DNA of 23,652 bases from a virus. This document shows, in pieces, positions 1 to 23,012 of this stretch (positions are counted from its first letter, which is position 1; each line of letters starts with the position of its first letter). The notes under the pieces are model-generated. The model was not told the DNA's origin, searched no databases, and worked only from the letters and a program-made list of their open reading frames with translations. A program made the translations under genes and the position numbers. The stretch covers positions 1 to 23,652 of IMG/VR virus record IMGVR_UViG_3300012920_000268; one strand, 5' to 3'.

Positions 1-253
1 ATACCATTGGTAAATCTAAAGGAACTCTCATTCCATTATAATCACCGTACTCTCCAATATCTGTTGTCTCTACTAAGTGCTTATCTTCTTCGTTTAACTG
101 TATTTTACCGTCTCTATGAGCTTTTCTTGCTTCTTTGAATAGTTGTATAAAAGCATCAGAATTATAACGGTAGACATTAGAATGTAAAGTTAATTCATTA
201 TCAATATGATACTGTAATGATGGTAGTCCGACAAGTTCTTGTAATTTAATCAT
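1..253 (-). CDS. Hypothetical phage protein, N-terminal 84 residues, cut by the window edge
   Basis: An open frame starts with ATG at 253-251 and runs without a stop to the left edge, giving 84 codons. The start is supported by an ATGA overlap with the stop of the gene before it (stop at 252-250), the classic arrangement for coupled translation. The visible part starts MIKLQELVGLPSLQYHIDNE and later has TTDIGEYGDYNGMRVPLDLP. It is hydrophilic, with no signal peptide or membrane segment. From memory, the IGxYGxYxGxxVPLDxP stretch resembles small uncharacterised proteins of marine T4-like phages, but I cannot assign a function. The C-terminus lies outside the window. Confidence 0.75.
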   Translation of the reverse strand, partial: MIKLQELVGLPSLQYHIDNELTLHSNVYRYNSDAFIQLFKEARKAHRDGKIQLNEEDKHLVETTDIGEYGDYNGMRVPLDLPMV

Positions 254-765
254 GATATGTATTTACTAATTTTTTTCATAGCTTCTTCTGCAGAGAATTC
301 ACCACCCATCCAATTGTTATGAACGTAGTACATAACGTCTTTTATATTGTCTATATCTCCTCTAATTCTTATGCCTGAGTCAACTACTTTTTCCATTTCG
401 TCGCTAGGTTCAGATAAGCTTCTACTTTCGTTTTTATCTCTCTTTTTAAATTCTCCTTTTTCCTCTTTCATTTCTGGGTGAAATAAGAATTTAATTATTT
501 TTGCATCTTTAGCTACTTCTTTGCCATCAATTTCTATTCCGATAGGGTAAGGTTTTGTTTTATCGTCTGCCCAATAAGCTACGTCGTAACTTTTATCTTT
601 ATTACTTGTTACTAATAAACCTCTATTATATGTATCTTCTTCAGCTTGGAGCACAACCATTTTACCGGTTGGAAGTATCATATCGCCCATAAGCTTAATA
701 TCTCCTTCGTCGTATCCGTCGTCATTATAACGATTTTGCTCTAAAAGTATATCAGTTAGTTTCAT
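250..765 (-). CDS. Hypothetical phage protein, 171 aa
   Basis: I do not recognise a family. The protein opens MKLTDILLEQNRYNDDGYDE and has a beta-rich middle (about residues 30-95, including GKMVVLQAEEDTYNRGLLVT). A highly charged Lys/Glu/Arg stretch follows at about 98-125, then a short helical C-terminus ending GEFSAEEAMKKISKYIS. There is no signal peptide, membrane segment or visible catalytic motif. The start is fixed by context: it overlaps the last 14 bases of the GIY-YIG gene, and its TGA overlaps the next ATG. It is therefore translated as part of the same chain as both neighbours. A short MKL-x-x-(I/L)L opening also appears on the 149-residue protein at 18349-18798, which may only reflect general phage sequence habits. 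Confidence 0.8.
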   Translation of the reverse strand: MKLTDILLEQNRYNDDGYDEGDIKLMGDMILPTGKMVVLQAEEDTYNRGLLVTSNKDKSYDVAYWADDKTKPYPIGIEIDGKEVAKDAKIIKFLFHPEMKEEKGEFKKRDKNESRSLSEPSDEMEKVVDSGIRIRGDIDNIKDVMYYVHNNWMGGEFSAEEAMKKISKYIS

Positions 766-1240
766 TTAAAAAATCTTTTCTATAGAATTTACCTAATATA
801 TTATCATTTATATACTGGTGGTTTCTTTCTAGTACTTCATTAATAAATAGCTCTTTACACTCATAATATGTTAATTCCTTCTTTGACTTCACAAATGAAA
901 GTATTTTTCTGCTGAAGGCCATCTCTCCGTCTTTTTTTAAAAGCTCTTTTATCTTAGGGTGAGAACCGTAATAGTCTTTCCAATCAGATTCAGTTACTAC
1001 TTTTTGCTTTAAAGGTACTCTTCCTTTAATTCCTTTTTTAGCTCTTTCTTCTCTTAATGCCTCTAAGGCTCTCTTTCCTAATCTTTTATTTCTTTCAAAG
1101 TATAATACTTTTTTGCCGATATATTTTAATCCTGATTTTTTATGATTTACTTGGTAGATGAAACCGTAAGTATTCTCAGGCATATCCTCTATAGATGTAA
1201 TTAATCTATCTTGATATATCCATGTGGGTAATGTTACCAT
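752..1240 (-). CDS. GIY-YIG fold protein, SegE-like putative endonuclease
   Basis: A 162-residue protein. The two halves of the GIY-YIG motif are visible as GFIY at residues 26-29 and KYIG at 39-42, in the usual spacing for an N-terminal nuclease module. After a basic helical stretch (about 48-80) comes ESDWKDYYGS (84-93), and near the end NDNILGKFYRKD. From memory these blocks fit the SegE-type GIY-YIG proteins common in T4-like phages. Known relatives include homing endonucleases, but free-standing phage members are often of unknown role. No DNA-binding helix-turn-helix or zinc finger is evident, so homing activity is not shown. The leader before the ATG is A/T-only with no Shine-Dalgarno site. 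The end overlaps the next gene by 14 bases. Confidence 0.75.
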   Translation of the reverse strand: MVTLPTWIYQDRLITSIEDMPENTYGFIYQVNHKKSGLKYIGKKVLYFERNKRLGKRALEALREERAKKGIKGRVPLKQKVVTESDWKDYYGSHPKIKELLKKDGEMAFSRKILSFVKSKKELTYYECKELFINEVLERNHQYINDNILGKFYRKDFLNETN

Positions 1241-1274
1241 AATATAATATATGTAATTTAAATTTTAGATACAA

Positions 1275-1787
1275 CTAATAAGTAACAGGATTAGCTAAAA
1301 AAGGTAGGTAATAATGTCCTCCTGGGTTTATACTACCGCTATATCTTGTTTCTAAAGTTGTATATGTGTTATCGATGATATCTGATTCTCCTCCAAACCA
1401 TATATCTATTAATATTAAATCATAACTTCTTGTAGGAGTATAAGTATATATATCTCCGTCTATAATATTGATAGTACTGTCTAAATGTCCACTAGAAGAT
1501 ACCCAGTGTGTTATTTCTGAGTTATTATCGACTACATCTATCACACTGCAAGAAGTATTTTGAGCTATCCATTCAGGTATAACTCCCATTCCTAAACCTC
1601 CTATCAAAACAGAATCATAAGATAAAGAAGAAAGCTTTGGGCAGCCTTTAGTTATATATAATTCATTATCGTGAATGATATGTTTATCATCGGTTGTAAA
1701 AGATATACTAACATCTTCAGTTTCTTTATATATAGAAAATGACGAGGTTGTAAAATTAGTAATTAAATCTTTATTTAATATTCCCAT
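1275..1787 (-). CDS. Short Rossmann-fold methyltransferase / spermidine-synthase-like protein
   Basis: A 170-residue protein with the marks of a class I SAM-dependent fold. A glycine-rich loop VLIGGLGMGVIP lies at 60-71, and a second strand with acidic end VIDVVDNN at 82-89. A D-G-D triplet sits at 110-112, followed by the hydrophobic strand DLILIDIW at 123-130. The order and the GGLGMG loop resemble spermidine synthase-like proteins. Full-length enzymes are usually near 280 residues, so this one is much shorter and has only a stub before the Rossmann core. Its substrate cannot be told. It lies 10 bases after the larger repeat protein, last after the fibre genes, so it could act on virion or host components. 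That is inference from position only. A second ATG seven bases upstream (1794-1792) is out of frame. Confidence 0.65.
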   Translation of the reverse strand: MGILNKDLITNFTTSSFSIYKETEDVSISFTTDDKHIIHDNELYITKGCPKLSSLSYDSVLIGGLGMGVIPEWIAQNTSCSVIDVVDNNSEITHWVSSSGHLDSTINIIDGDIYTYTPTRSYDLILIDIWFGGESDIIDNTYTTLETRYSGSINPGGHYYLPFLANPVTY

Positions 1788-1797
1788 TTTTCATTTT

Positions 1798-4700
1798 TTA
1801 ACAAGGGTTACATTGTCCTGCGTTTGTAAATACCCCAGAAGCGTTTGTTGTTCCTTTTTCAACTCCATCAGTAACAGCTCTATTTACAAACAGTTTTCCT
1901 GAGCAAGTACTAAACGTGTATATTTTACCCCCAGATTGACTTAGATCTCCATTTCCAAATGCATCAACTTTAGTATAGTAAACAGTAATACTAGTAGTAC
2001 ATCCATTATCTTCATGAGCTTGACAAGCATCGTTTGCGTTAGAGCTAAAATCAAATGCTACATCTACTGCACCACATCCTGAGGAAGAAGAACTAGATGG
2101 TCCAGGGATACCAGCAGAAGAGCGAGATGGAGTCACTGAAGGAGTAGATGTTACTGACGGGGTAGGTGTAGGAGAAGCAGAAGCTCCGCATAAAGTTGCT
2201 CCTTGAGTTATTGCTCCTACACCATTAATAGTAAAGTAATAACTACCTAATCCGTTAGGTCCTATACCAGACCAGCCAAAGTATCCTCCATTTATTACTA
2301 CATTACTAAAGTATGTGAATCCTATATCACCAGTTTCTGGATAAGAGGCAGTATTGCCATATCCTTTTATTAGTTGATGTGTTCCTCCACTTTGAGTTCC
2401 TCCATACTCGTAATTACCGCTAGTAACTGCAACACAAGCATCTGAGCTACTACTATCTCCTCCTGAGTTATAAGTCCAAGTTGCATTAGTAACGTACCAT
2501 TCGAACTGATTAATTCTAGTATATGACGATGGAGAAGGAGTAACAGAAGGAGTTTTAGTTACTGAAGGAGTTACTGAAGGAGTTACGGACCTAGTAGGAG
2601 TTACGGACCTAGTAGGAGTAACAGATGGAGTTACTGATCTAGTAGGCGTTACTGATCTAGTAGGCGTTACTGATCTAGTAGGAGTAACAGATGGAGTAAC
2701 AGATCTAGTTGGAGTTACCGACCTAGTAGGTGTTACACTTCTTGTAGGAGTAACAGAAGGGGTAACAGATCTAGTTGGAGTTACACTTCTTGTAGGAGTA
2801 ACAGAAGGAGTTACGGATCTAGTAGGAGTAACGGATCTAGTAGGAGTAATAGACGGAGTTACTGATCTAGAAGGAGTAACAGATTTTGTTGGAGTTACTG
2901 AAGGAGTTACGGATCTAGTAGGAGTTACTGATTTAGTAGGCGTTACTGAAGGGGTTACTGAGGTTGATGGAGTTACTGAAGGAGTAACAGATCTAGAAGG
3001 TGTTACAGAACTAGAAGGAGTTACTGAAGGAGTTTTAGTTACTGAAGGTGTTACAGAACTAGAAGGAGTTACTGAAGGAGTTCTAGAAGTCGATGGAGTT
3101 ACGGAGCTAGTAGGAGTTACTGAAGGAGTTCTAGAAGTCGATGGAGTTACGGAGCTAGTAGGTGTTATACTTGGTGTTACTGATCTAGACGGTGTTACAG
3201 ATCTAGTCGGTGTTATTGAAGGAGTAACTGAACTAGAAGGAGTAACTGAACTAGAAGGAGTTATTGACGGTGTAACTGAGTTAGATGGAGTTACAGATCT
3301 GGTAGGAGTAATAGACGGAGTTACTGAAGTTGAAGGGGTAACAGATCTTGTTGGAGTAATACTAGGAGTAACAGAACTAGAAGGAGTAACAGATCTAGTA
3401 GGTGTTACTGATGGTGTTACAGAACTTGATGGAGTAACAGATCTAGTAGGTGTTACTGATGGTGTTACTGATCTAGTTGGAGTCACACTTCTTGTAGGAG
3501 TAATAGAAGGTGTTATTGAAGGAGATGGAGTTACTGACTTAGTAGGGGTAATACTAGGAGTAACAGAGCTAGATGGAGTTACTGACTTAGTAGGAGTTAT
3601 GGAAGGAGTAACAGAGCTTGATGGTGTAACTGATCTTGTTGGAGTAATACTAGGTGTTACAGAACTTGATGGAGTAACAGATGTACTAGGAGTAACAGAT
3701 GTACTAGGAGTAATACTAGGTGTTACAGACCTTGTTGGAGTAACTGAATTAGATGGAGTAACTGAATTGGATGGTGTTACAGACCTTGTTGGAGTAATTG
3801 AAGGTGTTACTGAACTAGATGGCGTTACAGAGTTAGTAGGTGTAATTGAAGGAGTACTACTAACAGAAGGTGTAACTGATTTAGATGGTGTTACGGAATT
3901 AGTAGGAGTAATACTTGGCGTTGCAGATACTGAAGGAGTACTAGATACTGAAGGGGTAGTAGAAGGGGTAACAGATCTTGTAGGAGTAATACTTACAGAA
4001 GGAGTAGCTGTATTACTAGGAGTAGTAGATGCTGTAGGAGTTATACTTACAGAAGGAGTAACAGATCTTGTAGGAGTTATACTTACAGAAGGAGTAACCG
4101 AATTACTAGCAGTAACAGAAGGAGTTACCGAACTAGAAGGAGTTGCAGATACAGAAGGGGTTCTACTTGGTGTAACAGAATTACTAGGGGTTACAGAACT
4201 AGAAGGTGTTACACTATTACTCGGAGTAGCAGATATAGATGGAGTTCTACTCGGTGTTATGGAATTACTAGGAGTTACTGATGGAGTAGTAGATGCACTT
4301 GCTGCAGGAGTTTGAGTTCTTGTAGGTGTGATAGAAGGAGTTACGCTTCTTGTAGGTGTTACAGATCTAGTTGGAGATATAGATACTGAAGGAGTAACAC
4401 TTGCTGTAGGTGTTTTAGATGGTGTTGTTGATGTTGAAGGAGTAGTAGATGGAGTAACAGAGCTCGTAGGGCTTACACTAATAGAAGGCGTTGAAGTTAT
4501 TGAAGGGGTAACAGATGGAGTTACAGAATTTGTAGGAGTAATAGAAATCGATGGTGTAACTGATCTGGTAGGGGTTACACTAGCTGTAGGAGTAATAGTA
4601 GCAGAAGGAGTTACTGATGGTGTTACTGAATTAGATGGTGTTATAGAATTAGAAGGAGTAGCTGATGTTGAAGGTGTTCTTGATGGAGTTACAGAGTTAG

Positions 4701-5253
4701 AAGGAGTAACTGATCTAGTCGGAGTAACGGAAGGTGTTACAGAGCTTGATGGAGTAACAGAATTAGACGGTGTTACTGAATTTGATGGAGTAGTACTTGG
4801 CGTTACCGATACTGAAGGAGTAACTGAACTAGTAGGAGTTACCGATACTGAAGGAGTAACTGAACTAGTAGGAGTTATTGACGGTGTTACAGAACTAGAA
4901 GGAGTAATTGATCTAGTTGGTGTAATAGAAACTGTAGGGGTAACAGAAGGGGTAGCAGAGACTGATGTAGATGGAGTAATTGAAGGAGTAGTAGATTTTG
5001 ACGGAGTAACAGAAGGGGTTACAGTTCTACTTGGGGTTATGCTTACAGATGGTGTTGCTGATGTACTAGGTGTAGCTGAAGGAGATATAGAAGGAGAAGG
5101 AGTAGGAGAAGCTGGAATAAAAGGTCTTTCACCATAAGGTACGAATACTATACCGTTATCAATAAGTTCACTACCTGATAAAGTATATTCTTTATTAGCT
5201 TCATATGAGCTAATATATCCATCCTTATTATCTATTTTTTTAAATATACTCAT
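1798..5253 (-). CDS. Giant modular T-P-S repeat fibre-like virion protein, 1151 aa
   Basis: Domains in order: an N-terminal module (1-47, with [19 protein letters not shown]) and a Ser/Thr/Pro rod of about 860 residues (48-908). The rod is built from four- and six-residue steps of the type xTPS and xSVTPS/T. A globular domain follows (909-1022, two Cys), then a second short linker (about 1023-1058), and a C-terminal Cys-containing module (1059-1151) ending in CNPC. It is a paralogue of the 728-residue protein encoded just before it, sharing the N-terminal, globular and C-terminal modules. There is no signal peptide. Position after the baseplate genes and the extended rod suggest a fibre, whisker or host-binding projection; this is inferred. 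The ATG lies 18 bases after the preceding gene's stop. Alternatives include a head or collar decoration. Confidence 0.85.
3065..3160 (-). repeat. Perfect tandem duplication, 2 x 48 bases
   Basis: Bases 3065-3112 and 3113-3160 are identical by direct comparison. Each unit is 16 codons of the T-P-S rod, so the duplication keeps frame. Perfect identity among otherwise diverged units suggests a recent event. Confidence 0.95.
4802..4873 (-). repeat. Perfect tandem duplication, 2 x 36 bases
   Basis: Bases 4802-4837 and 4838-4873 are identical, each 12 codons of the rod. Like the 48-base duplication in the same gene, it changes rod length without a frameshift. Confidence 0.95.
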
Positions 5254-5271
5254 TTAACCTATATACATATA

Positions 5272-7458
5272 TTAAGCTATCTCACATAATCCGACATCGC
5301 TATATAGACCATTAGCATTAGTCGTACCATGTTTTGTACCGTTAGATACAATTTTATTTGCAACTACATTATTAAACTGATCATAAACTTTAGATACACC
5401 ATGCTGTAAAGTTCCAGTTCCAAAGTTTTGCGTAGTTGATTTTAATGTTTTTGGATTTAGTCCGTTTGCTTGATCACAAGCATTAACGCTAGAAACTGTT
5501 GAAAATCCTCCATCAAAAGGATAGAGTGGAACTGGGCTAGGAGTTACTGAAGGAGTAACAGATCTAGAAGGTGTAACAGAAGGTGTTCTAGAAACTGATG
5601 GTGTTATTGATGGTGTTACTGATGTAGATGCTGATGGTGTTACAGAATTAGATGGTGTTACGGAATTAGAAGGGGTAACAGAAGGAGTTCTAGAAGGAGT
5701 AGGTGAAACACCAGAACACGGTACTAGATTAATGTCTACAGCTCCATCTCCTGTACCGGTATAAGTAAAGTAATAATTTTGAGGACCTCCTCCTAGGTTT
5801 ACTGAAATACCGTAGTACCCGCCTTGAATTATCTGACCTCCTTCTTTTATTGTATCATTAACTTCAGGGTAATTATTTGATTGATTATTACCTTGATCTT
5901 TAATTAAAGTAACACTATAACAGTAATTACCTGAAGTAACAGCATTACAAGCGCTTGTAGCATTATTATCTCCAGCTACTGATTTATTCCAGCTTGCATT
6001 TGAATTACATATAGTTATATTATATTGAGATGGCTGTGAAGGACTTGGTGTTACAGACGGGGTAACTGAAGGTGTTCTAGAAGGTGTAGGACTTGTAGAT
6101 GGTGATACCGGACAAGTGCCTGTTGCAAATACGTATGCTTGGCCACTATTATTACCTACTGTTAATACTGTTACGTTACCAATAGTGGTGTCATAAATAT
6201 ACAGAGAAGTTGATGTTGACCCTATTTCGGCTTGCAGTTCAGCTAGCGTCCATGGATTAGTTGCAAATGCATTTTGCCATAGGTAATCTCCTGCACCGAT
6301 AGGGTGGCTTGTAGCATAAACAGTTATTAAGGAAGTTCCTGCTCCTCCGTTACAAGCACCGTCTTCAGTTTCTGCTAACCTATATGTAGCATCATCTAGA
6401 GGGTCAGATGGAGTAACAGATGGAGTAACAGAATTAGATGGTGTTACTGAATTTGATGGAGTAACTGATGGAGTAACTGATGGTGTTGCAGAATTAGAAG
6501 GAGTTCTAGAAGGAGTAGGTGAAACACCAGAACAAAGTACTAATCCAGAATCAACTACTCCTGCTCCTGTACCTGTATAAGTAAAGTAATAATTTTGAGG
6601 TCCTCCTCCTAGGTTAGTTGATATACCATAGTACCCTCCTTGTATAGTTTGTCCGCTTTCTTTAATTACATCTTTAGATTCTGGATAATTATTTGTTTGT
6701 ATATTATCTTTATGCTTTATTAAAGTAACTGTATAACAATAATTACCTGAACTAACAGCATTACATGCATTTGTAGCATTAGTATCTCCGGCTACTGAGT
6801 TATCCCAACTTGCGTTTGAATTACATATAGTTATCGTATACTGAGACGGTGGTGATGGACTAGGTGTTACTGACGGTGTAACACTATTAGAAGGAGTAAT
6901 ACTTGGTGTAGTAGATGTCGAAGGTGTTACAGAGTTAGAAGGAGTAATACTTGGTGTAGGAGATATTGAAGGTGTTACAGAATTAGATGGTGTTACGGAA
7001 TTAGAAGGGGTAACAGAAGGAGTAACAGAATTAGATGGTGTTACTGAATTTGATGGAGTAATAGAGGGAGTTACAGAGTTAGAAGGAGTTATACTTGGTG
7101 TAGGAGATATTGAAGGAGTAACTGAATTAGATGGAGTAACTGAATTAGATGGAGTAATACTTGGTGTAAGAGATACTGAAGGTGTAACAGAAGTAGAAGG
7201 AGTTATAGAAGGTGTTACTGATATACTAGGAGTAGCCGAAGGAGTAGTTGATGGGGTAGTAGAGGCTGAAGGAGATGGAGTTGGAGATATAGGTATAGAG
7301 GGAGCTGCCCCAAACGGAACAAATACTATACCATTATTAATTAAATCGGAGCCAGATAGAGTATATCTTTTTTTAGCTAAATAAGTTGAAATATATACAT
7401 CGTTCTGATCTAGTGACTTCCAAACTCCTTGTTGACTTAGTTGTTTCCAAATGCTCAT
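5272..7458 (-). CDS. Modular T-P-S repeat fibre-like virion protein, 728 aa
   Basis: Domain order: N-terminal module (1-57, with YTLSGSDLINNGIVFVPFG); T-P-S rod (58-204); globular domain A1 (205-309); linker (310-351); a different globular domain B (352-449, with YRLAETEDGACNGGAG); linker; A2 (477-581), a near copy of A1; linker (582-645); and a C-terminal module (646-728, with HGTTNANGLYSDVGLC). A1 and A2 differ at 23 of 105 positions in my hand alignment. Each A domain carries four Cys at matching places, which could form disulfides outside the cell. There is no signal peptide, so release would be with the virion. The protein is paralogous to the 1151-residue product that follows 18 bases later. 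A role as fibre or receptor-binding projection is inferred from architecture and position. Confidence 0.85.
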   Translation of the reverse strand: MSIWKQLSQQGVWKSLDQNDVYISTYLAKKRYTLSGSDLINNGIVFVPFGAAPSIPISPTPSPSASTTPSTTPSATPSISVTPSITPSTSVTPSVSLTPSITPSNSVTPSNSVTPSISPTPSITPSNSVTPSITPSNSVTPSNSVTPSVTPSNSVTPSNSVTPSISPTPSITPSNSVTPSTSTTPSITPSNSVTPSVTPSPSPPSQYTITICNSNASWDNSVAGDTNATNACNAVSSGNYCYTVTLIKHKDNIQTNNYPESKDVIKESGQTIQGGYYGISTNLGGGPQNYYFTYTGTGAGVVDSGLVLCSGVSPTPSRTPSNSATPSVTPSVTPSNSVTPSNSVTPSVTPSDPLDDATYRLAETEDGACNGGAGTSLITVYATSHPIGAGDYLWQNAFATNPWTLAELQAEIGSTSTSLYIYDTTIGNVTVLTVGNNSGQAYVFATGTCPVSPSTSPTPSRTPSVTPSVTPSPSQPSQYNITICNSNASWNKSVAGDNNATSACNAVTSGNYCYSVTLIKDQGNNQSNNYPEVNDTIKEGGQIIQGGYYGISVNLGGGPQNYYFTYTGTGDGAVDINLVPCSGVSPTPSRTPSVTPSNSVTPSNSVTPSASTSVTPSITPSVSRTPSVTPSRSVTPSVTPSPVPLYPFDGGFSTVSSVNACDQANGLNPKTLKSTTQNFGTGTLQHGVSKVYDQFNNVVANKIVSNGTKHGTTNANGLYSDVGLCEIA
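5716..6030 (-). repeat. Duplicated globular domain, copy A2
   Basis: Encodes residues 477-581 of the 728-residue protein. It matches copy A1 (6532-6846) with 82 of 105 residues identical by hand alignment and high DNA similarity, including long shared stretches near 5760-5800 and 6575-6615. The copies lie about 500 bases apart with domain B between them. Confidence 0.9.
6532..6846 (-). repeat. Duplicated globular domain, copy A1
   Basis: Encodes residues 205-309 of the 728-residue protein, including ICNSNASW, ACNAVSSGNYCY, GGYYGIS and NYYFTYTGTG. It is the partner of copy A2. A more diverged third copy ([20 protein letters not shown]) lies at 2188-2529 in the next gene. Confidence 0.9.
6847..7287 (-). 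repeat. Codon-phased T-P-S repeat, shorter array
   Basis: Encodes residues 58-204 of the 728-residue protein, mostly [10 protein letters not shown]-type units. It is the counterpart of the far longer array in the next gene. Further short stretches of the same repeat link the globular domains at about 6406-6531, 6031-6111 and 5524-5715. Confidence 0.9.
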
Positions 7459-7479
7459 TCATTAACATTCTCTTGTTTA

Positions 7480-8538
7480 TTAGTAATCGAGCTTTATTCT
7501 TATAAGTGCTTCTTTAGTAAAGTCCTTAAGTAATGGTGTTGAAAGTTTAGCAACTGCTAATAAATCATTATTATCGTTATATAGTCCTACTGCTGTAATG
7601 TACGATTGAGGATTATCAATCATAACGTTATGTCTAAGTTCTCCTGAACCGGTTATGTTAGAAGGGTTATTAGAATAATTAAATTCAGCATTTCTACATC
7701 TTACAAACACATAGTTAGAAGAAACTGTTTCTTGTGATCTTAAAGTAAATCCTCCTCCTGTTAAACCAGAACCATCATCTACTGAGTCGTATATTGCTTC
7801 ATTATTATTAAAAGTAGTTTGATTATTAATAGAAGATGATTGTAAAGCAACATATCCTGATGCGCTTAGTATATCTCCATTTAAGGCTATAATACCTAAA
7901 TCAGGGAAAAGGTTACCATATTGTACTTCTCTGTTATGTACAGTACCTGCTGACCCTGAATATATAGCATAAACTCTTCCTCCGTCAACGAAAGTATCTG
8001 TAGTTACATTTAAACTATCATCAGTTAAAACCAGTCCTTGAGTTGTATCTGTAGAAGGATCAGCTAACTGAGTACCACTACCGGTTAAGGTAAGTGTCAT
8101 AGAACCAGGTAAAATCTTTTCTTTAAATCTAGCTCTTTCAACAGATATAAAAACCATATCATCTGATGTAGTAGTTGATGCTCCACTTTCAGATAAAAAA
8201 GTAAAATCGGTATCTTCATCGCCGAATATTAAAGTTCTAAACTGGCCATATACGGTTGAACTGTAGGATTTACCTTTGACAGAGCTGTCGTATAGAGCTG
8301 AGCCGCTACCTAGCCTATTTCCATATGCTACAGAATACTGAATAGATTCTGATGTATTAGCTACTGAACCTGGGTCGGCATTATAAATATTATAATAATA
8401 GTTACCGCTACTAGCTCCTACTTGTGTAGAGCTTGTAAAGGCAGTTGTTAAAGTTACTCCATTGTCTGACCATGCTGGGGCAGTAATAGAATCTGAACTT
8501 ACAACTATATCTTCTAAATCAAATCTTTTGTACGACAT
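7480..8538 (-). CDS. Virion structural protein with shared C-terminal domain, 352 aa
   Basis: A beta-rich, Ser/Thr/Gly-rich protein with no signal peptide. The middle has RARFKEKILPGSMTLTL (about residues 132-150), and residues 264-352 form a C-terminal domain with AEFNYSNNP, then SYITAVGLYNDNNDLLAVAKLS. The same blocks occur in the 289-residue protein at 10646-11515, so the two are paralogues. From memory, the EFNYS.NP and YIT.VGLYN blocks recur in uncharacterised structural proteins of marine T4-like phages. It starts 4 bases after the preceding gene's stop with a purine-rich AAGAAG directly before the ATG, the nearest thing to a ribosome site in the operon. A tail or fibre-associated role is likely; the exact part is unknown. 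Confidence 0.75.
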   Translation of the reverse strand: MSYKRFDLEDIVVSSDSITAPAWSDNGVTLTTAFTSSTQVGASSGNYYYNIYNADPGSVANTSESIQYSVAYGNRLGSGSALYDSSVKGKSYSSTVYGQFRTLIFGDEDTDFTFLSESGASTTTSDDMVFISVERARFKEKILPGSMTLTLTGSGTQLADPSTDTTQGLVLTDDSLNVTTDTFVDGGRVYAIYSGSAGTVHNREVQYGNLFPDLGIIALNGDILSASGYVALQSSSINNQTTFNNNEAIYDSVDDGSGLTGGGFTLRSQETVSSNYVFVRCRNAEFNYSNNPSNITGSGELRHNVMIDNPQSYITAVGLYNDNNDLLAVAKLSTPLLKDFTKEALIRIKLDY

Positions 8539-11528: not shown

Positions 11529-14500
11529 TTATGCTAAACTACAACCACAGTGTTCATCTGGGCATTCTGCTCCATCGTCAAAGAAGTATCCACTAATTGC
11601 AGCGAATTGAGTAGTTCCTGTATATCTAGCTATTTGGTTATTATCTGGTGAATCACTATCACATTGAGTATCTACAATAACTTCGTAGTACTTTCCACTT
11701 ATTGGAGCATTAGTAACTGTTCTGTTTTGTGTTCCTCCAAATCCAGTACATATAACCCCTGGTCCGCTTCCTCCGTTAGTATTTTGAGGTATGTTAATAA
11801 AGGTACCAGAAGCTGTTCCGTTACCATCACCAGCAGTACAAAGTTGGAATCTATAGGTTAAGAATAAAGGAGAAGGAGATGGAGTAGGTGAAGGTGAAGT
11901 AAGCTGTTTAGAAGGAGAAGGAGTAATAGAAGGAGTAATAGAAGGTGTTACTGAAGGAGATGGAGTTGGTGAAGGAGAAACGTCTGTACCTTTAAGAACT
12001 GGTCTAATTTTATATTGTAAATTAGTTCCGCCTTCATACTTAAATATATTTGCTATATTAAGTTCATTAGGAAAATAGCTTGATGATATGACACTACCGC
12101 TCAATTCACCATCATACCTAGCCTCTTCGTGATTATGATATTCGTATGTTGCTAACCCTCCTGAAGTCATAACCTGTGCGGTATAACTAGCAGTTAAAGG
12201 TATAGTTAGTTCTAATTCATTTTGACCTCCATAAGCCCCACCTGAGCTTCCTGTATTTTCATTTATTGAAATACTTCCTGTCAAAGTAATATCACCTATA
12301 AACTGATTCTGTATTTCTTGAGAAGCTGAATTTAATAATTGACTTCCGGAAATTTGTAATTGCTTTATTTTATTTCTTTCTAAAATATGAGGCTTTACTA
12401 TTAAACCTTCACTTAAACTACTTCTTGCAGGAATGTAATCTTTTATAGATTTAAATATAACATTATCGTAAAACTTTAAAGTTCTAACAATATCGCTATA
12501 ATTATGGCTACCTGATATTATATAATCATCATTTTGAGTGTGGGTGTTTTGACTACCGGTCATAATATCTGATACTATATCACTTGCCGAATCAAATAAT
12601 TCTATATAACTAGATGAATACTGATATCCAGGATCGCCTAGAAAATTATCTATATTGAAATCCCCACTTTGAGAATCTATAAAGTAGTTATTTATTCTTT
12701 CATCTAGTACATGCGTAGGGGAAAATCCAACCTCAACTCCATGTAAATCATCTGCGTACTTACTATCTCTCTTTACTATCGATATATATTGCGATAAAGT
12801 AGTACCTTCTATACTACCGGTATTGTCTATTCTTACTCTACCTAACGATGATGTTATATCTGTAAATTGACCTAAATTAGGAGTATTATTAGCAGCGTTA
12901 GAAGCTGAGTCAATTAAGCCTCCTCCCATAACTCTAACTAATAATCCGTTATGTGATCCATCAGCTCCGGTAAAATTATTATTAGTAGGAATACCAAAGC
13001 TTGAAACTAATGCCTTTACACCTCTTTCTGTTCCTTTAGATTTAAGCAATAAAGGTAAATTGTGGTAGAGCCTTTTATATAATTGAGTTCTATATTCGTC
13101 TTCAGATACTAACTCTTGTGAACCGGTCAATGAACCTGTTGTAAAGGTATTTATCAACTCACTTCCTGTGTTATAAAGTTCTCCTTGATAAACAGATACT
13201 AATGATTCTATCGATCTGTTACTAGCATATAATTTAACACCGAAGTTTCTTAATGCTTCTTCTACTAGTTGTGCAGGTATACCGTTATATATTCTATTAT
13301 CAGCATCGTACTTGTCTGATAGCGCTTTTGAGTAAACCCATATATTATCAAAATGCTGACCTATCATATCACCAAAGGTTACAAAAGGTGCATTAGCAGA
13401 GTCATCCTGTAGGTATGCAGGTACTGCATTAACAAGTCTAGATTGATTTTCAGCATCAAAATTACTAGCAGATAATATCTTATCATCATACCATGAACCG
13501 GTAGCTGAACCGGTTGCTAGTATAAAGGGTTTTTCTATTATACCATTAGGTCCTACTTGCTTAGGCCAAGAGTGAGAGCTAGATTGATAATATAAGAATC
13601 TTTCAAAATGATCAAAATTATCTATAACACTATTTATACTAGAGCTATGAAAATTTAATTGACCAGTATTGTCTCCTGTACTGGCGTCGTATGCAGCATC
13701 ATATAAGGCTTGAGACGAAGATATTAAATTTACTTTATATCTAAAGTTTTTTAACCTTTCTTCTACAGAACTGAAATTAATAAAATTGTTAAAATCTTTA
13801 TAGTCTATACTTACATCTATTCCTTTTTCGTTGAATAATGAATTTAATTGTCTAAAACTTTCACTTACAGGAAAATTAAAGAGTTCATCATAATTAAAAT
13901 ACTCAGTAGAAGAGATTACCTGTTTTTCTTCCTCTATGTTAAAATTAGCAGGCTTTAATAAAGGTACTCTAATTTCATCAGGTATGACTTCTCCTTCTAT
14001 TTCATAACCTACAGAATCAGATACTATTCTATCTAAAGTTAACGTAGATTTTAAATCATACTGTTTAGGTAGTGGTGCATATAATTTTACTACAATGGAT
14101 GTGAATTCCCTATATGGCTGTGAGTCAATATTAATACCTATAGCTAAATTATTGCTACCAAAGTTAAGTCTAAAGTCATCTAAATATGACTTACTTTCTA
14201 ATTCTTTTTTAAGCTCTTCAGTAGTGTCTAATAGTAATTGATCTTTGACCTGTGTTGTTAGAAGTCTTATTTCTGTTCTATCTTTAGATATTTCTTCAAT
14301 AAAAAAAGTTACAGGAACTTTATTATCAGAGTATATATCATCTAAAAAATTATATACTACTTTAACATCGCCTTGAGAATATCCTTTTCTTTGAATATCA
14401 CTAATAGGGTCAATAGTCATTTCGACTACTTTACCATCGTTATCAGATTGAGATCCTTGCAAAAAAGATTGTTCACTATAATTATCGTAAGATTGTAATA

Positions 14501-14660
14501 GAATATCATCTATAGAGTAAATATGATATTCGATTTTATTTTCAAATGCTTTAAACTCAGAATTTATTTCAAACGACTTTATAACAGACGTATCCTGTGC
14601 AGAAAACTTTTGCAGATTATCTGGTTCTATTAACTGTATATTATACTTAACTTGCGGCAT
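11529..14660 (-). CDS. Large baseplate/tail-tip structural protein with Cys-rich C-terminal addition, 1043 aa
   Basis: Residues 1-893 make up a long soluble protein with an N-terminal beta region and a helical middle. The middle includes VPAYLQDDSANAPFVTFGDM, IGQHFDNIWVYSKALSDKYD and YKRLYHNLPLLLKSKGTERG. From memory these blocks recur in large uncharacterised structural proteins of environmental T4-like phages. A Ser/Thr/Pro linker (894-931) then joins a 112-residue C-terminal domain rich in Gly and Cys (seven Cys) that ends HCGCSLA. Size and position soon after the gp6-like gene recall T4 gp7 (about 1030 residues), but I see no sequence proof. The first 14 bases overlap the preceding gene. 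The linker is of the same kind as in the two giant repeat proteins. Confidence 0.8.
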   Translation of the reverse strand: MPQVKYNIQLIEPDNLQKFSAQDTSVIKSFEINSEFKAFENKIEYHIYSIDDILLQSYDNYSEQSFLQGSQSDNDGKVVEMTIDPISDIQRKGYSQGDVKVVYNFLDDIYSDNKVPVTFFIEEISKDRTEIRLLTTQVKDQLLLDTTEELKKELESKSYLDDFRLNFGSNNLAIGINIDSQPYREFTSIVVKLYAPLPKQYDLKSTLTLDRIVSDSVGYEIEGEVIPDEIRVPLLKPANFNIEEEKQVISSTEYFNYDELFNFPVSESFRQLNSLFNEKGIDVSIDYKDFNNFINFSSVEERLKNFRYKVNLISSSQALYDAAYDASTGDNTGQLNFHSSSINSVIDNFDHFERFLYYQSSSHSWPKQVGPNGIIEKPFILATGSATGSWYDDKILSASNFDAENQSRLVNAVPAYLQDDSANAPFVTFGDMIGQHFDNIWVYSKALSDKYDADNRIYNGIPAQLVEEALRNFGVKLYASNRSIESLVSVYQGELYNTGSELINTFTTGSLTGSQELVSEDEYRTQLYKRLYHNLPLLLKSKGTERGVKALVSSFGIPTNNNFTGADGSHNGLLVRVMGGGLIDSASNAANNTPNLGQFTDITSSLGRVRIDNTGSIEGTTLSQYISIVKRDSKYADDLHGVEVGFSPTHVLDERINNYFIDSQSGDFNIDNFLGDPGYQYSSSYIELFDSASDIVSDIMTGSQNTHTQNDDYIISGSHNYSDIVRTLKFYDNVIFKSIKDYIPARSSLSEGLIVKPHILERNKIKQLQISGSQLLNSASQEIQNQFIGDITLTGSISINENTGSSGGAYGGQNELELTIPLTASYTAQVMTSGGLATYEYHNHEEARYDGELSGSVISSSYFPNELNIANIFKYEGGTNLQYKIRPVLKGTDVSPSPTPSPSVTPSITPSITPSPSKQLTSPSPTPSPSPLFLTYRFQLCTAGDGNGTASGTFINIPQNTNGGSGPGVICTGFGGTQNRTVTNAPISGKYYEVIVDTQCDSDSPDNNQIARYTGTTQFAAISGYFFDDGAECPDEHCGCSLA

Positions 14661-15006: not shown

Positions 15007-16114
15007 TTCTTACTACTTTAAATACGTTACTATCATCAACTAAAGTACTTCCGTCTAATTCGCTTTTGATTAATAACCTATAATATCTTTCTGGTTGTAA
15101 GCCATTCATATAAAGATCTATATAAGAACCTGATGTATCACAGCTTACTTTAGTACTACTGTTATTAAAGTCTATTTCCATTTCTTCTGTATATTCATCT
15201 TTAAGACCGTACACAGAACCTGAAGGTAGAGCAAAGTTTGTTTTAAATATAGAACCTGTTGTAAAAGTTCTTGTAGGGTTTTTAGGTCTAGCTAGTAATC
15301 TAAATCTATATTTACCTACATCTGGGTATGAACCTCTATTATTAGTAACTTCGATTACTGCTTGTGAGTTATTTAATACGCTTAAACTACCTGTTTCATA
15401 TACCTGATCATCCCATTCAAACGTTAATGTAGGAGGGTAAATAGTATTAGTATCACTACTATAGTATCTAGTTATAAGTGATGCACTAGTATAAAACTCA
15501 ATACTGTCTTCTAACTTAAGGATAAAACCATTATTGTCTATAGTACCAGAATTATGTAAATGTACAGCGTTAGTAACATCCAGGTATATATCAAGATCTT
15601 GACCTGTTGAAAAGGATTGTGTTGATTCTAAGTTATAAGTAGCAGATGCTGTAAACCAACTACCTCCGCCTGGATATGTAGAATTATAAGAGGCGGTTTG
15701 ATAGGTACTAAATCCGCTAGTTGTCCACGGATCGGTATATTCTGATTTTCTATATCTCCATGATACACCTGATCTATCTTCAGAGCCGGTTAGTATGTCG
15801 TCAGCAAATTTTCCTACACCGCCTTGGAAGCTTTCTGCTAAAGGGTAACATTCTATTTTATATTCTTGAGGCATTTCATAAGCATCAGCAAGTGATAGAT
15901 CGATACTAGCAGTAAACACGTTGTCTCCTACTATATTACCTAGCACATTATTAACTTCGCTTGTTTTAAAATGAATAAGAGTTCTTGAAGTTTGCCCTAC
16001 TTCTTGTACAGGGTAACCTGCTAACTCAAGCATTTCGTCAAAACCAGCATTAGCTGTTACTACTTGAGTATTAATGAGTGAATCATAATCAGAAAATAAT
16101 TTATATACTGCCAT
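14999..16114 (-). CDS. DNRLRE-like beta-sandwich virion protein, 371 aa
   Basis: Residues 44-234 follow the pattern of DNRLRE-type domains. There is a first strand RTLIHFKTSEV, an aromatic block GVSWRYR (116-122) with DPWTTSG (128-134), then DIYLDVTNAV (175-184), and NNGFILKLE (194-202). The block ends YYSSDTNTIYPPTLTFEW. In other proteins this domain is an extracellular beta module, often in adhesins. The remaining C-terminal part (about 235-371) is also beta-rich and ends with a fibronectin-like stretch (LQPERYYRLLIKSELDGSTL). It begins one base after the gp6-like stop, which places it in the baseplate wedge block, perhaps as a peripheral baseplate protein in the slot of T4 gp7 or gp8. The domain call is by eye only. 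Confidence 0.65.
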   Translation of the reverse strand: MAVYKLFSDYDSLINTQVVTANAGFDEMLELAGYPVQEVGQTSRTLIHFKTSEVNNVLGNIVGDNVFTASIDLSLADAYEMPQEYKIECYPLAESFQGGVGKFADDILTGSEDRSGVSWRYRKSEYTDPWTTSGFSTYQTASYNSTYPGGGSWFTASATYNLESTQSFSTGQDLDIYLDVTNAVHLHNSGTIDNNGFILKLEDSIEFYTSASLITRYYSSDTNTIYPPTLTFEWDDQVYETGSLSVLNNSQAVIEVTNNRGSYPDVGKYRFRLLARPKNPTRTFTTGSIFKTNFALPSGSVYGLKDEYTEEMEIDFNNSSTKVSCDTSGSYIDLYMNGLQPERYYRLLIKSELDGSTLVDDSNVFKVVRNG

Positions 16115-16115
16115 T

Positions 16116-17942
16116 TTACGCTGTTGTTATTCGTCCTTTAATATCTAATGATGGATATTTAACTTCAAAAATACAAGGATCAAAAGAAGGATAAACTATA
16201 CTACTTCTTGTTGCTCCTTCGATATCATATCCAAAACTAGAATAAGCTCCATCATTTACTGTTTTATTAACTATTTCTATTTTTTGAACTGTTTGTACTC
16301 CTTTTACTTTATCGAGTAAAACAAAAAGTTCAGCTAGATTAATAGTTTGATTTATATTTCTTTTACTTATGTCAAAATATTCTTGAAGAGCTAAATTACA
16401 GTTAAGTAAAACGTTTCTTCCTGTATAGTTAGGTCTTACTATTATTTCATAATTAACCCCTATATTTACTATGAATGCATCTTTTATATTAACGCTATCA
16501 GATAACATCATCCATTCACTCAAATAAGTTTTAAGGTTTTCTTTTAAGGTTGAAGATGCTGTCTGTAAGTTTTTATTAAGATCGTATGCTAGTACATAAA
16601 CTGATAAAGCTAAAGGATTGTTATCTACTATACCGTCATTAATGTTTGTATTAGTTCTTTTGTCTTGAGTAACAAAAACTTTACCTATACTTCCGAATTT
16701 TGCAGGTAACGATAAAGCTCGTACTGTATAATCTTGTAGAGTAACTGCTCTTCCTTGTTCATTAAAAGCTCTTAAAGAATTCTCTCTTAATTCAGTTACT
16801 GTATCTCCATCTCTACCTCCTTTAGCTGGTTCAATGTTTGTAAAAGTAACGTTATTTGTAGAAGCATTACTTCGTAATTGAATACCTACAGAAGTTTTAC
16901 TTGTGATTGAATTAGCAGGTACGTTAGCTGATACTCCTCCGCCGGTTATATACCTTACCAATAGATCTTCGTTAGGTGCTACTCCATATGCTCTACTGAA
17001 TGTAAAGTTAGAAGGATCCCATGCACTATCTAATTTTTTCTCTCCTAAGTCTGTACCATTACCTACATTAGTAGGATCAGGTAATAAAACTGAATCATCA
17101 CTATCGTATGTACCTGCTCCAAACTGTATGTTTAGATCTCCGCTAGACTGGAACCTACTAACGAATCTTTTAGGTGCTTTACGTAAGCTCAAACTAAAAG
17201 GTACAAGTCCTGAATCTGCTCCACCATTAGTCTCATCTGCAAACACAGTATCTTGACCTAGAAAAGGAACTTCAAAATACGTGTCTCCGCTACTTCCAGT
17301 GACATCTAATATTCCTACTAGGTTAGTATCAGAAAGTGTGATAGTCTTGAATTTTTCCGATGAATCTATTTCGTATGTATTAGACTTAATAGTACCTGAA
17401 TAGGCTTTAACTTTCTTTTTGAGAATATATTCAGAAGGGTTTCCAGATGCAATAGAGTTAATTAAAACTTCAGTAGGATCGTATGAACTGCTAAATTGAA
17501 AGTCTACAGGTGCAGTAGTTATAAAGTCTGTGTTAGATTTATCAGTTGAGGTTACAACTGAATTAGCGTCTATTACTACAGCATGAGCCCAGTTAGGGTT
17601 ATAATCGTCAGATGCATTAGCAGGAACTACACATGATACTGTAAGTTCAACTTCTGATACTCCGGTTACCTTAGGTTTATACCCCATCATATAAGCTAGG
17701 TTAAATAGATTCTTTTTATCTTGAGCATAAGTTAAAAATGTCTCTTGCAATTGAGTATCTTGATAAAAAGATAAAACGTCACCTACATAAGATGCCATTT
17801 CAATAATCATCATACCAGGTGATGTATCAGAAAAGTCATTATAAGTATCAGGAAAATAGCTTTTAGCCATTTCTATTAACGAAGCTCTAAAATCGTTAAA
17901 GTTCCTATTTGAATATTTTATTTCTCTTTCTTTATTAGCCAT
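16116..17942 (-). CDS. gp6: Baseplate wedge protein, gp6-like (baseplate J family)
   Basis: A 608-residue protein, close to T4 gp6 (about 660). The N-terminus has NFNDFRASLIEMAKSYFPDT and the typical helical block YVGDVLSFYQDTQLQETFL (52-70) with NLFNLAYMMGYKPK. The middle carries EPAKGGRDGDTVTELRENSL followed by RAVTLQDYTVRA, the hallmark of baseplate J/gp6 proteins. In T4, gp6 dimers form the ring of wedges that holds the baseplate together and interact with gp25. The gp25 gene lies directly upstream, and the start overlaps its stop by one base (TAATG). No unusual features were seen; the identification is firm at family level. Confidence 0.88.
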   Translation of the reverse strand: MANKEREIKYSNRNFNDFRASLIEMAKSYFPDTYNDFSDTSPGMMIIEMASYVGDVLSFYQDTQLQETFLTYAQDKKNLFNLAYMMGYKPKVTGVSEVELTVSCVVPANASDDYNPNWAHAVVIDANSVVTSTDKSNTDFITTAPVDFQFSSSYDPTEVLINSIASGNPSEYILKKKVKAYSGTIKSNTYEIDSSEKFKTITLSDTNLVGILDVTGSSGDTYFEVPFLGQDTVFADETNGGADSGLVPFSLSLRKAPKRFVSRFQSSGDLNIQFGAGTYDSDDSVLLPDPTNVGNGTDLGEKKLDSAWDPSNFTFSRAYGVAPNEDLLVRYITGGGVSANVPANSITSKTSVGIQLRSNASTNNVTFTNIEPAKGGRDGDTVTELRENSLRAFNEQGRAVTLQDYTVRALSLPAKFGSIGKVFVTQDKRTNTNINDGIVDNNPLALSVYVLAYDLNKNLQTASSTLKENLKTYLSEWMMLSDSVNIKDAFIVNIGVNYEIIVRPNYTGRNVLLNCNLALQEYFDISKRNINQTINLAELFVLLDKVKGVQTVQKIEIVNKTVNDGAYSSFGYDIEGATRSSIVYPSFDPCIFEVKYPSLDIKGRITTA

Positions 17943-18349
17943 TATTCAAAATTTATTAATATAGTATCATTTATATTAGAATCTGCTATTGCATATCTCA
18001 TACTAAATGTAATTGTATTTTTATCTGGTTCTCCTATAAGATTTATAGATGTTGGTTTAACTCTAGGAAAAAAATTTTTGAGATCATCTTGTATCTTCAT
18101 TTTAATTTCTTCTAAAGTATTATCATCTATCTGTTCAAATAAAAGCTCTCTAAGACCAGCTCCAAAATCTACATTAAAAAATCTTTCACCAGGTGTGGTT
18201 AGAAAGTAATTAATTAAATTTGCTTTTATAGCGTCTTTAGTTTGAAAAGTAGAGTTAAATACTGCATTACCAGAAAAGGGTAGATCAAGTCCGACTGCTT
18301 TTCTTGGTTCTAAATCAATGGGCATTATTTTTTTAAACTCTATTGCCAT
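17942..18349 (-). CDS. gp25: Baseplate wedge protein gp25 (GPW/gp25 family)
   Basis: A 135-residue protein, nearly the size of T4 gp25 (132). It has an N-terminal MPIDLEPRKAVGLDLPF (9-25) with the LEPR motif. The family signature PGERFFNVDFGAGLRELLFE follows at 53-72, then an acidic helical segment (QIDDNTLEEIKMKIQDDLKN) and a last beta strand pair. In contractile tails gp25 lies at the baseplate core and helps nucleate the sheath. It is also related to TssE of type VI secretion. The start overlaps the stop of the 149-residue gene by one base (TAATG), and its own stop overlaps the gp6 start the same way, so the two wedge proteins are translationally linked. Confidence 0.92.
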   Translation of the reverse strand: MAIEFKKIMPIDLEPRKAVGLDLPFSGNAVFNSTFQTKDAIKANLINYFLTTPGERFFNVDFGAGLRELLFEQIDDNTLEEIKMKIQDDLKNFFPRVKPTSINLIGEPDKNTITFSMRYAIADSNINDTILINFE

Positions 18350-18798
18350 TATCTTACTTTATCTTTTTCTATAGATTTATCGTATACTTGTTTAGCTTTT
18401 TTTACAAAATCTAATTTACTAATATCAATACCTGGCATAGGGCCTGAGTTTGCAGTTAATCCCATATCGGTAGCAATATTAGATGCGAAGTTAGGTTTTT
18501 GAACCATAGAAGAGTCAGCGTTAACTACGTTCCTATAGTCTTCTCCTGTCATAGAAGCAGCTGTTTGCTGAATCATTTCTTCTAAAGGTACGGTACCTGT
18601 ATTCATTTTACCAATAGACCAAGTCCTTGCTAGGTCTTTTTGTTTTACCTCTCTGTAGTTCGTACCTGAGGTATTTTTATTATTAGGTGTAGGGGTACTT
18701 GCATGTTTAACTGCTTCGTTAAGCATATCTTGTAACTCTTCCTTCACTGCGGCTCTCACCTCTTCTCTAATAATTTTCCTTAATACATCTAGTTTCAT
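18349..18798 (-). CDS. Small baseplate-region protein with N-terminal helix, 149 aa
   Basis: The protein opens with a charged amphipathic helix (MKLDVLRKIIREEVRAAVKE, about residues 1-30). A low-complexity Thr/Pro/Asn linker (34-47) follows, then a conserved-looking middle (DLARTWSIGKMNTGTVPLEE) and a basic C-terminus (DFVKKAKQVYDKSIEKDKVR). There is no signal peptide or membrane segment. I do not know a function; from memory, proteins with this opening lie next to gp25 in environmental T4-like phages. It starts 17 bases after the previous gene, with ATTTATAATT before the ATG and no Shine-Dalgarno site, and its stop overlaps the gp25 start. A baseplate structural or assembly role is inferred from context. 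Confidence 0.75.
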   Translation of the reverse strand: MKLDVLRKIIREEVRAAVKEELQDMLNEAVKHASTPTPNNKNTSGTNYREVKQKDLARTWSIGKMNTGTVPLEEMIQQTAASMTGEDYRNVVNADSSMVQKPNFASNIATDMGLTANSGPMPGIDISKLDFVKKAKQVYDKSIEKDKVR

Positions 18799-22157: not shown

Positions 22158-22892
22158 TTATAGCTTTTTTAACATACTATCTAAACCTTTTGAAGATTTA
22201 AACGTTTTCTTTTGATTATATCTTGGTTTTGTTTCTTTTGGTATAAGGCTTCCTCCATCTCTTCTCCACATATCGAACTCTACCTTAGAAGCTAAGAAGT
22301 CTGCTGAGTGTAAAACGTAGACTATATTAGTCTTCATCCTAGAAGTCGGCATATTACTAAAGAAATAAGCTTCATTAGCTTTATCAAACACACCATCATG
22401 TAGTCTGATACCTAAAAATTCGTTTTGAGTAACTGATATACCAAACTTCTGTAGAATAAATAAAGATCTATCAGGTACTAACATAAAATCTAAATCTGGA
22501 TTATATGTATAATTTTCAAATAGCTTATTCTTTCTCCATTCGTCGGTCTGGATTATATAATTATTCTTATCTCCATCACCTATTTTACCTAAATCATGAA
22601 ATATAGCTGCAAATACTAACTCTTCATCTGTAAAATCTATAGTACCTCCCATTTCCTCAAACAGCTTCTTCTGTTTAATAGCAAATTCAACTACTCTATT
22701 AACGTGGTCTATATATCCTCCTGGAAAAGCATTATGATGCCAAGACTTACCACTAGCAGGAGCCATAATATATGCCTCTCCTAAGTGTTCTATAAGTTTT
22801 TTACATGCATCTTTACGATCACCTATATAATGATCTATTATTTTAAGATGTTTTTCATAATTCGAATGGATTTTCTCCGCTTGCAATGCCAT
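22158..22892 (-). CDS. HD-domain metal-dependent phosphohydrolase
   Basis: A 244-residue protein with an HD fold. GGYIDHVNRV gives a first His ligand (H63), FHDLGK the H99-D100 doublet, and VLHSADFLASK the distal Asp (D196). An R-L-H-D block at 161-164 may add a further ligand. The opening helices with APASGKSWHHNAFPGGYIDH resemble HD hydrolases of the kind found in nucleotidases and in YhaM-type exoribonucleases, but no OB-fold RNA-binding part is present. Substrates could be nucleotides or cyclic nucleotides; the sequence does not decide. It starts after the 120-base AT-rich gap and is the first gene of the unbroken gene chain that leads into the sigma factor and baseplate genes. Confidence 0.8.
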   Translation of the reverse strand: MALQAEKIHSNYEKHLKIIDHYIGDRKDACKKLIEHLGEAYIMAPASGKSWHHNAFPGGYIDHVNRVVEFAIKQKKLFEEMGGTIDFTDEELVFAAIFHDLGKIGDGDKNNYIIQTDEWRKNKLFENYTYNPDLDFMLVPDRSLFILQKFGISVTQNEFLGIRLHDGVFDKANEAYFFSNMPTSRMKTNIVYVLHSADFLASKVEFDMWRRDGGSLIPKETKPRYNQKKTFKSSKGLDSMLKKL

Positions 22893-23012
22893 ATTAGATT
22901 AATTATTTGTTTATATATTATTATTTTATTATATTATATTATAATTAATACTTTATATATATTATAATTCTTAATATATAATTAAGATAATGATTATTTT
23001 TCAAAAGATCAA
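22893..23012 (-). promoter_or_regulatory. AT-rich intergenic gap, probable promoter/leader region
   Basis: The only gap above 50 bases. By my count just 9 of its 120 bases are G or C. A 6-bp inverted repeat with a 5-base loop lies at 22970-22986, but it is all A/T apart from one pair and no T-run follows, so it is a weak terminator candidate at best. I found no match to the Bacteroidota TAnnTTTG element or to the T4 late box TATAAATA on the minus strand. The promoter role is inferred from position before the HD gene. Confidence 0.35.

Follow-up and report, generated by a model that had tools for sequence, protein, structure and literature searches.

Our analysis indicates that orf728 and orf1151, two consecutive genes of an uncultured aquatic phage, probably encode paralogous adhesins, in which a stalk with Ser or Thr at every second residue would be docked by its N-terminus and carry small heads that bind glycans on the surface of the host or the environment. 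Phage adhesin loci as such are already known. No library family corresponds to the rule followed by the stalk, to the heads, or to the combination of heads with several different anchors; neither these features nor such phage stalks are described in the open-access papers to which our literature search was confined.

The window, by which we mean the whole stretch of DNA analysed, is a 23,652-base IMG/VR virus record (IMGVR_UViG_3300012920_000268). The orf728 (728 aa) and orf1151 (1151 aa) genes both lie on the minus strand and are separated by 18 nt (Table 1). orf728 runs from an anchor through a 146-residue rod, head A, a short rod, head B, a short rod, a second head A, and a further rod to a tip; orf1151 consists of an anchor, an 860-residue rod, head A, a short rod, and a tip. 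The initial annotation had described shared N- and C-terminal modules, A-type domains in both proteins, and rods of strongly unequal length, and all of these are present. The N-terminal motif YTLSGS[DE]LIxNGIVFVP[FY]G aligns between the two proteins, as do, at about 30% identity, the C-terminal modules (GTTNA[NS]G...GxC). The two A-type domains of orf728 are 79% identical, the single one of orf1151 is divergent (about 40%), and the rods measure 146 and 860 residues against the claimed 147 and 861. The extent given for the feature holds for both genes and is otherwise too narrow: orf1043 (11529-14660) bears a third, shorter TPS rod and its own Cys-rich end, so the feature is wider than positions 1798-7458. 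The Cys-rich end is absent from the orf1043 counterpart gp109 of the cultured Flavobacterium phage immuto_2-6A, whose match stops at residue 972, and no homologue of it was found among the fetched relative loci. Two plus-strand open reading frames (3599-4315, 238 aa; 4328-5137, 269 aa) mirror the rod repeat and are unlikely to be genes. AT-rich tandem repeats lie in an intergenic stretch upstream of the operon, at positions 22891-22985.

Table 1. Features of the rod-bearing genes and of the borders of their slot in the window (residue numbers refer to the encoded protein)
Feature	Position	Strand	Basis
orf728	5272-7458	minus	open reading frame
orf728 N-terminal anchor module, residues 1-51	7306..7458	minus	hmmsearch family of 114 distinct N-termini
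orf728 main rod, 58-203, [S/T]-X frame	6850..7287	minus	73/73 alternate positions S/T
orf728 head A copy 1, 206-312	6523..6843	minus	alignment; AF2 pLDDT 90.1, pTM 0.84
orf728 head B, 352-451	6106..6405	minus	12 homologous stretches, anchor-II proteins included
orf728 head A copy 2, 478-584	5707..6027	minus	79% identity with copy 1
orf728 distal rod, 585-644	5527..5706	minus	29/30 alternate positions S/T; Pro in other register 14/14
orf728 C-terminal tip C, 645-728	5275..5526	minus	module alignment with orf1151 tip
orf1151	1798-5253	minus	open reading frame
orf1151 N-terminal anchor module, 1-42	5128..5253	minus	aligns with orf728 anchor
orf1151 rod, 51-910, [S/T]-X frame	2524..5103	minus	429/430; Pro positions with 16-residue superperiod
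orf1151 head A, 913-1024	2182..2517	minus	divergent, about 40% identity
orf1151 C-terminal tip C, 1060-1151	1801..2076	minus	AF2 pLDDT 88.3, pTM 0.79
orf1043 third TPS rod, 887-938, near C-terminus	11847..12002	minus	sequence
orf1043 Cys-rich C-terminal domain, 939-1043	11532..11846	minus	sequence
gp106-like gene orf352, upstream border of fibre slot	7480..8538	minus	51% to immuto gp106; same neighbour in relatives
SegE-type GIY-YIG gene, downstream border of slot	752..1240	minus	PF19835 E 6e-28; immuto counterpart gp100

Gene order and sequence similarity place orf728 and orf1151 in the fibre slot of a baseplate operon of the T4-like type. The whole window is syntenic with gp122-gp099 of immuto, and every neighbour matches in order: the phosphohydrolase, gp118, gp117, gp116, gp115, gp114, the gp25-like gp113, and the baseplate wedge gp112, followed by gp111, gp110, gp109, gp108, gp107, gp106, the fibre slot, gp100, and gp099. 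Identity to the window genes is 56% for gp112, 81% for gp107, and 51% for gp106. The immuto slot contains gp105, then gp104 (annotated as tail fiber) and gp103 and gp101 (annotated as tail spike); in the window, orf728 and orf1151 take the place of gp104-gp101, and the slot also contains a small methyltransferase-like ORF. The SegE-type gene marks this end of the slot in immuto as well as in those relatives whose sequence extends that far; the immuto label “NAD synthetase” for its family (phrog_447) looks wrong. The methyltransferase-like ORF (Rossmann-type, 1275-1787, minus strand; phrog_15480, E 1e-4) lies between the rod genes and the SegE-type gene; a 50% identical copy adjoins a rod gene in L171/L172, and the ORF is absent from L165 and L166. 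Relatives in IMG/VR were recruited via gp107 (593 confirmed stretches, 80 kept). In their slot, an ANCH-I protein (300-360 aa) comes first, and behind it lie YadA-head-like fibres, collagen-like (GXY)n proteins, or Ser/Thr-X rods. The collagen-like proteins occur in L026, L027, L052, and L055, and up to 51 consecutive Gly-X-Y triplets were seen downstream of the gp106 homologue in L026 and L027. By analogy with immuto, the host is probably a bacterium of the Bacteroidota.

The N-terminal 42 residues define the anchor, and the HMM search suggested by the initial annotation recovered this module in 114 distinct proteins among the fetched loci. All matches start at or near residue 1, and most members are a gp105-like protein encoded directly behind gp106. 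The immuto gp105 protein itself matches the anchor (47% over 32 residues, E 0.002, BLASTP). In the window genes, the anchor is joined directly to the rods. A docking part would be expected to recur in this way, as one short N-terminal piece on otherwise unlike products of a single tail operon; this agrees with the earlier idea of a fixed anchor and suggests that the peptide docks orf728 and orf1151 on the tail or baseplate.

The rod unit is not T-P-S, as had been annotated, but a dipeptide frame of Ser or Thr followed by any residue. In the orf1151 rod, Ser or Thr occupies 429 of 430 alternate positions, while shuffling of the same residues gives 240 +/- 4.3; in the main rod of orf728, the count is 73 of 73 (shuffled mean, 41 +/- 1.9). 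All Pro residues, 160/160 in orf1151 and 33/33 in orf728, lie outside the Ser/Thr register, and the spacing between them is even throughout, nearly always 4 or 6. The rods are composed of S, T, P, V, R, I, A, N, K, and Q; Gly is absent. The tandem periods listed for the rods are all multiples of 6 nt, and hence even numbers of codons, and stalk length may shift through duplications of this kind, consistent with the adjustable rod length that had been proposed. The rods of relatives follow the same rule even where their ends differ, with 0-2 Pro in the Ser/Thr register of the longest rod of each relative (100-860 residues). In a first tally of relatives, Ser/Thr occupied 2041/2072 positions and Pro fell into that register in 5/884 cases; only the Pro tally is independent, because the stretches behind the other were picked for alternation. 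The window, L166, and L167 share a superperiod of 16 residues, at which lag the autocorrelation of Pro is 0.67-0.83, and other superperiods occur elsewhere, namely 14 with 24 and 38 residues in L165 and L147-type rods and 18 in L045. Since the superperiod varies between lineages and the dipeptide frame is constant, selection appears to hold the frame and not a fixed coil.

Codon usage indicates that this frame is maintained at the protein level. The 74 copies of SVTPS have 51 DNA spellings, and the 20 copies of TPTRSVTPS have 20. Identical hexapeptides in the orf1151 rod use the same codon with a frequency of 0.471, compared with 0.460 expected under independent choice, and this value rises to 0.599 for copies less than 20 residues apart. 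Codon identity is thus near the independent expectation and higher for close copies, indicating that most copies are old and that local duplication is ongoing. Because synonymous sites are near saturation and the residue frame is intact, the pattern is held at the protein level. The rods of L166 and L006 show codon behaviour like that of orf1151, and the codon-identity excess is larger in those of L147, L145, and L151.

Among the modules for which structure prediction had been suggested, head A and tip C were modelled confidently with AlphaFold2, from 18 sequences for head A (pLDDT 90.1, pTM 0.84) and 13 for the orf1151 tip C (pLDDT 88.3, pTM 0.79). Both models have the same E-H-E-E-E-E-E order (strand, helix, five strands), with an Ala-Cys pair within the helix and the last Cys after the last strand, an arrangement that may permit a disulfide. 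Comparison of profiles with hhalign related tip C to tip E (67%, E 5e-5) and did not support a relationship for the pairs A-B, A-C, A-E, and B-E. We therefore set aside the treatment of all heads as one sequence family, head A and tip C sharing just their strand order; a single head superfamily is plausible. Scans of Pfam, PHROG, and NCBIfam found no family for the head, tip, or anchor modules, and these libraries gave no hit to an established family of non-virion proteins, the outcome that the initial annotation had named as grounds for rejection. The rods matched only phrog_15511, a family without assigned function, with NF033849 far under its cut-off. In the family and fold searches, none of the modules matched a lectin fold or any receptor-binding family already described. 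Comparison of head A and tip C with the PDB gave best Foldseek E values of 1.3 and 2.0 and best VIA Z scores of 3.1 and 2.8; there was no significant match for head A in the PDB and BFVD or for tip C in the PDB, which does not in itself prove a new fold. A tblastn search of head A, tip D, and tip E against 50,697 phage records returned nothing, nor did a scan of GTDB genomes for head A and one tip, which used short exact patterns that distant cellular homologues could escape.

Clustering of the non-rod segments into head and tip types revealed that the same heads occur on different anchors, as the notion of swappable Cys-containing heads had implied. Head A, head B, tip D, and tip E are each found in two to four N-terminal contexts. 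Head A is carried by anchor I (orf728, orf1151, L085, L165), anchor II (L145, L147, L151), and another N-terminus (L006 at 3738), and head B by anchor I (orf728) and anchor II. Tip D is found with anchor I (L085), with anchor II, and at the C-terminus of an orf1043-type baseplate protein, and tip E likewise with anchor I, anchor II, and an orf1043-type protein. Flanking the slot on either side (window 1-1287 and 7316-7713), the DNA of the close relative L166 is 86-88% identical to the window; inside the slot, the rod repeats alone match, and the L166 tip is of type D, not C. The tip described as fixed is accordingly so only within the window genome. A headless 99-aa anchor-plus-rod protein, the product of the first of the two L166 genes, replaces orf728 in L166 256-555 / L085 and overlaps the beginning of the rod gene that follows. 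Heads might be swapped between anchors by recombination within the slot; that the bordering GIY-YIG endonuclease gene drives this exchange is offered only as an idea.

The position of both genes in the tail operon, as seen from the synteny with immuto and the slot genes of relatives, and the combination of a conserved N-terminal attachment part with a variable distal part resemble tail fibre and receptor-binding proteins, although Pfam contains no curated fibre or receptor-binding family that matches orf728 or orf1151. The fibre and spike genes of immuto (gp104, gp103, gp101) occupy the same slot between gp106/gp105 and SegE in the same operon order, but lack rods and AC heads, the N-module (on gp105) alone being in common. 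The collagen-like fibres of relatives are likewise repetitive, length-variable rods in the same slot; they are built of Gly-X-Y triplets in contrast to the Ser/Thr-X frame of the Gly-free rods studied here. The Pro-Thr box linkers of bacterial cellulases are (T-P)n chains that also have Thr at every second residue, but they are short and lie inside enzymes, unlike the phage rods. The gp62 protein of Cellulophaga phage phi18:1 (L175 7752-8192, 146 aa), encoded by the last gene before the holin and after a tail protein proven by MS, has a C-terminal half weakly like the AC...C tip (tblastn E 0.4); it has no rod and was not itself detected by MS. Its sequence makes it a suggestive candidate for a cultured, tractable relative of the heads. 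Its N-terminus is weakly like anchor II, and we set this assignment aside, as E was only 0.11.

The best reading of the stalk, by analogy, is that it works like that of the serine-rich-repeat proteins (SRRPs) of Gram-positive bacteria (Fap1, GspB, PsrP, and SraP). In SRRP stalks, Ser alternates with another residue and is O-glycosylated (PMC3601411, PMC6973325), as in the (E/V/I)S dipeptide repeats of Fap1 (PMC3601411), and the variable repeat number is thought to extend the reach of the binding region (PMC6973325). orf728 and orf1151 have the long stalk with Ser or Thr at every second residue, and in SRRPs, too, the non-repeat binding regions sit in the stalk. In contrast to SRRPs, these are phage genes, Thr is as frequent as Ser, Pro occupies the X register, and the anchor is N-terminal and phage-specific. 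The LPxTG cell-wall anchor (LP.T[GA] motif) is absent from both proteins, and no accessory Sec component (SecA2/SecY2) was matched among the subset of window ORFs scanned by Pfam, PHROG, and NCBIfam. Glycosylation of the stalk is a guess from this analogy. The Bacteroidota O-glycosylation sequon D[ST][AILVMT] does not occur in orf1151, and GT2 glycosyltransferases were not enriched with rods (3/8 rod-bearing contigs vs. 5/10 others). In the L100 record (G007), three GT2 matches, one above the curated cut-off, lie at 15478-18702, a few kilobases from the fibre genes.

The adhesin reading places function in the heads, held away from the virion by an extended and perhaps glycosylated stalk, and recognizing glycans or proteins of the host or environmental surface. 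The rod could instead be the functional part, as a coat resembling mucin, which would shield the virion, provide spacing, or retain it in mucus or algal gel, with the heads merely capping or folding the chain. The rod composition, the 860 residues that dominate orf1151, and the headless protein of L166 fit such a coat; we nevertheless consider it unlikely, since the heads keep an AC...C grammar that is invariant across heads A and B and tips C/E, are common to different anchors, and occur, several at a time, on nearly all complete rod proteins.

Strict alternation could also reflect inward and outward residues of a folded beta-solenoid, a fixed coil forming a rigid fibre shaft, and the 16-residue superperiod of the window, L166, and L167 would suit it. 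This appears distinctly improbable, as the superperiod is not conserved in L165, L147-type, and L045 rods and the dipeptide frame alone is constant; moreover, beta-strands seldom have Pro at intervals of 4-6 residues. Repeats of the T/P/S type can also come from slippage, and the genes might then encode functionless linkers, or else secreted or cell-surface proteins of the phage that are not part of the virion. We regard both possibilities as very remote, because the genes lie within a baseplate operon, share their anchor with gp105-like proteins, lack the LPxTG motif, and preserve the amino-acid frame while their synonymous sites are close to saturation. A docked stalk with binding heads thus remains our preferred explanation. 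The more far-reaching view, that these proteins are the phage counterpart of SRR adhesins, of independent origin, with a virion-mounted O-glycosylated stalk and interchangeable heads of new fold, and widespread in an almost uncultured aquatic clade, is tentative and on present evidence doubtful.

This study also provides a search rule for such stalks, namely Ser or Thr at every second residue with Pro kept out of that register, and new head domains whose ligands are directly testable. The clade has hardly any cultured members, and its contigs in IMG/VR number in the hundreds. If the adhesin reading is right, folded beta-fibres and collagen-like rods would be joined, in tailed phages, by a third type of fibre shaft: a mucin- or SRR-like chain whose length and heads can be freely changed.
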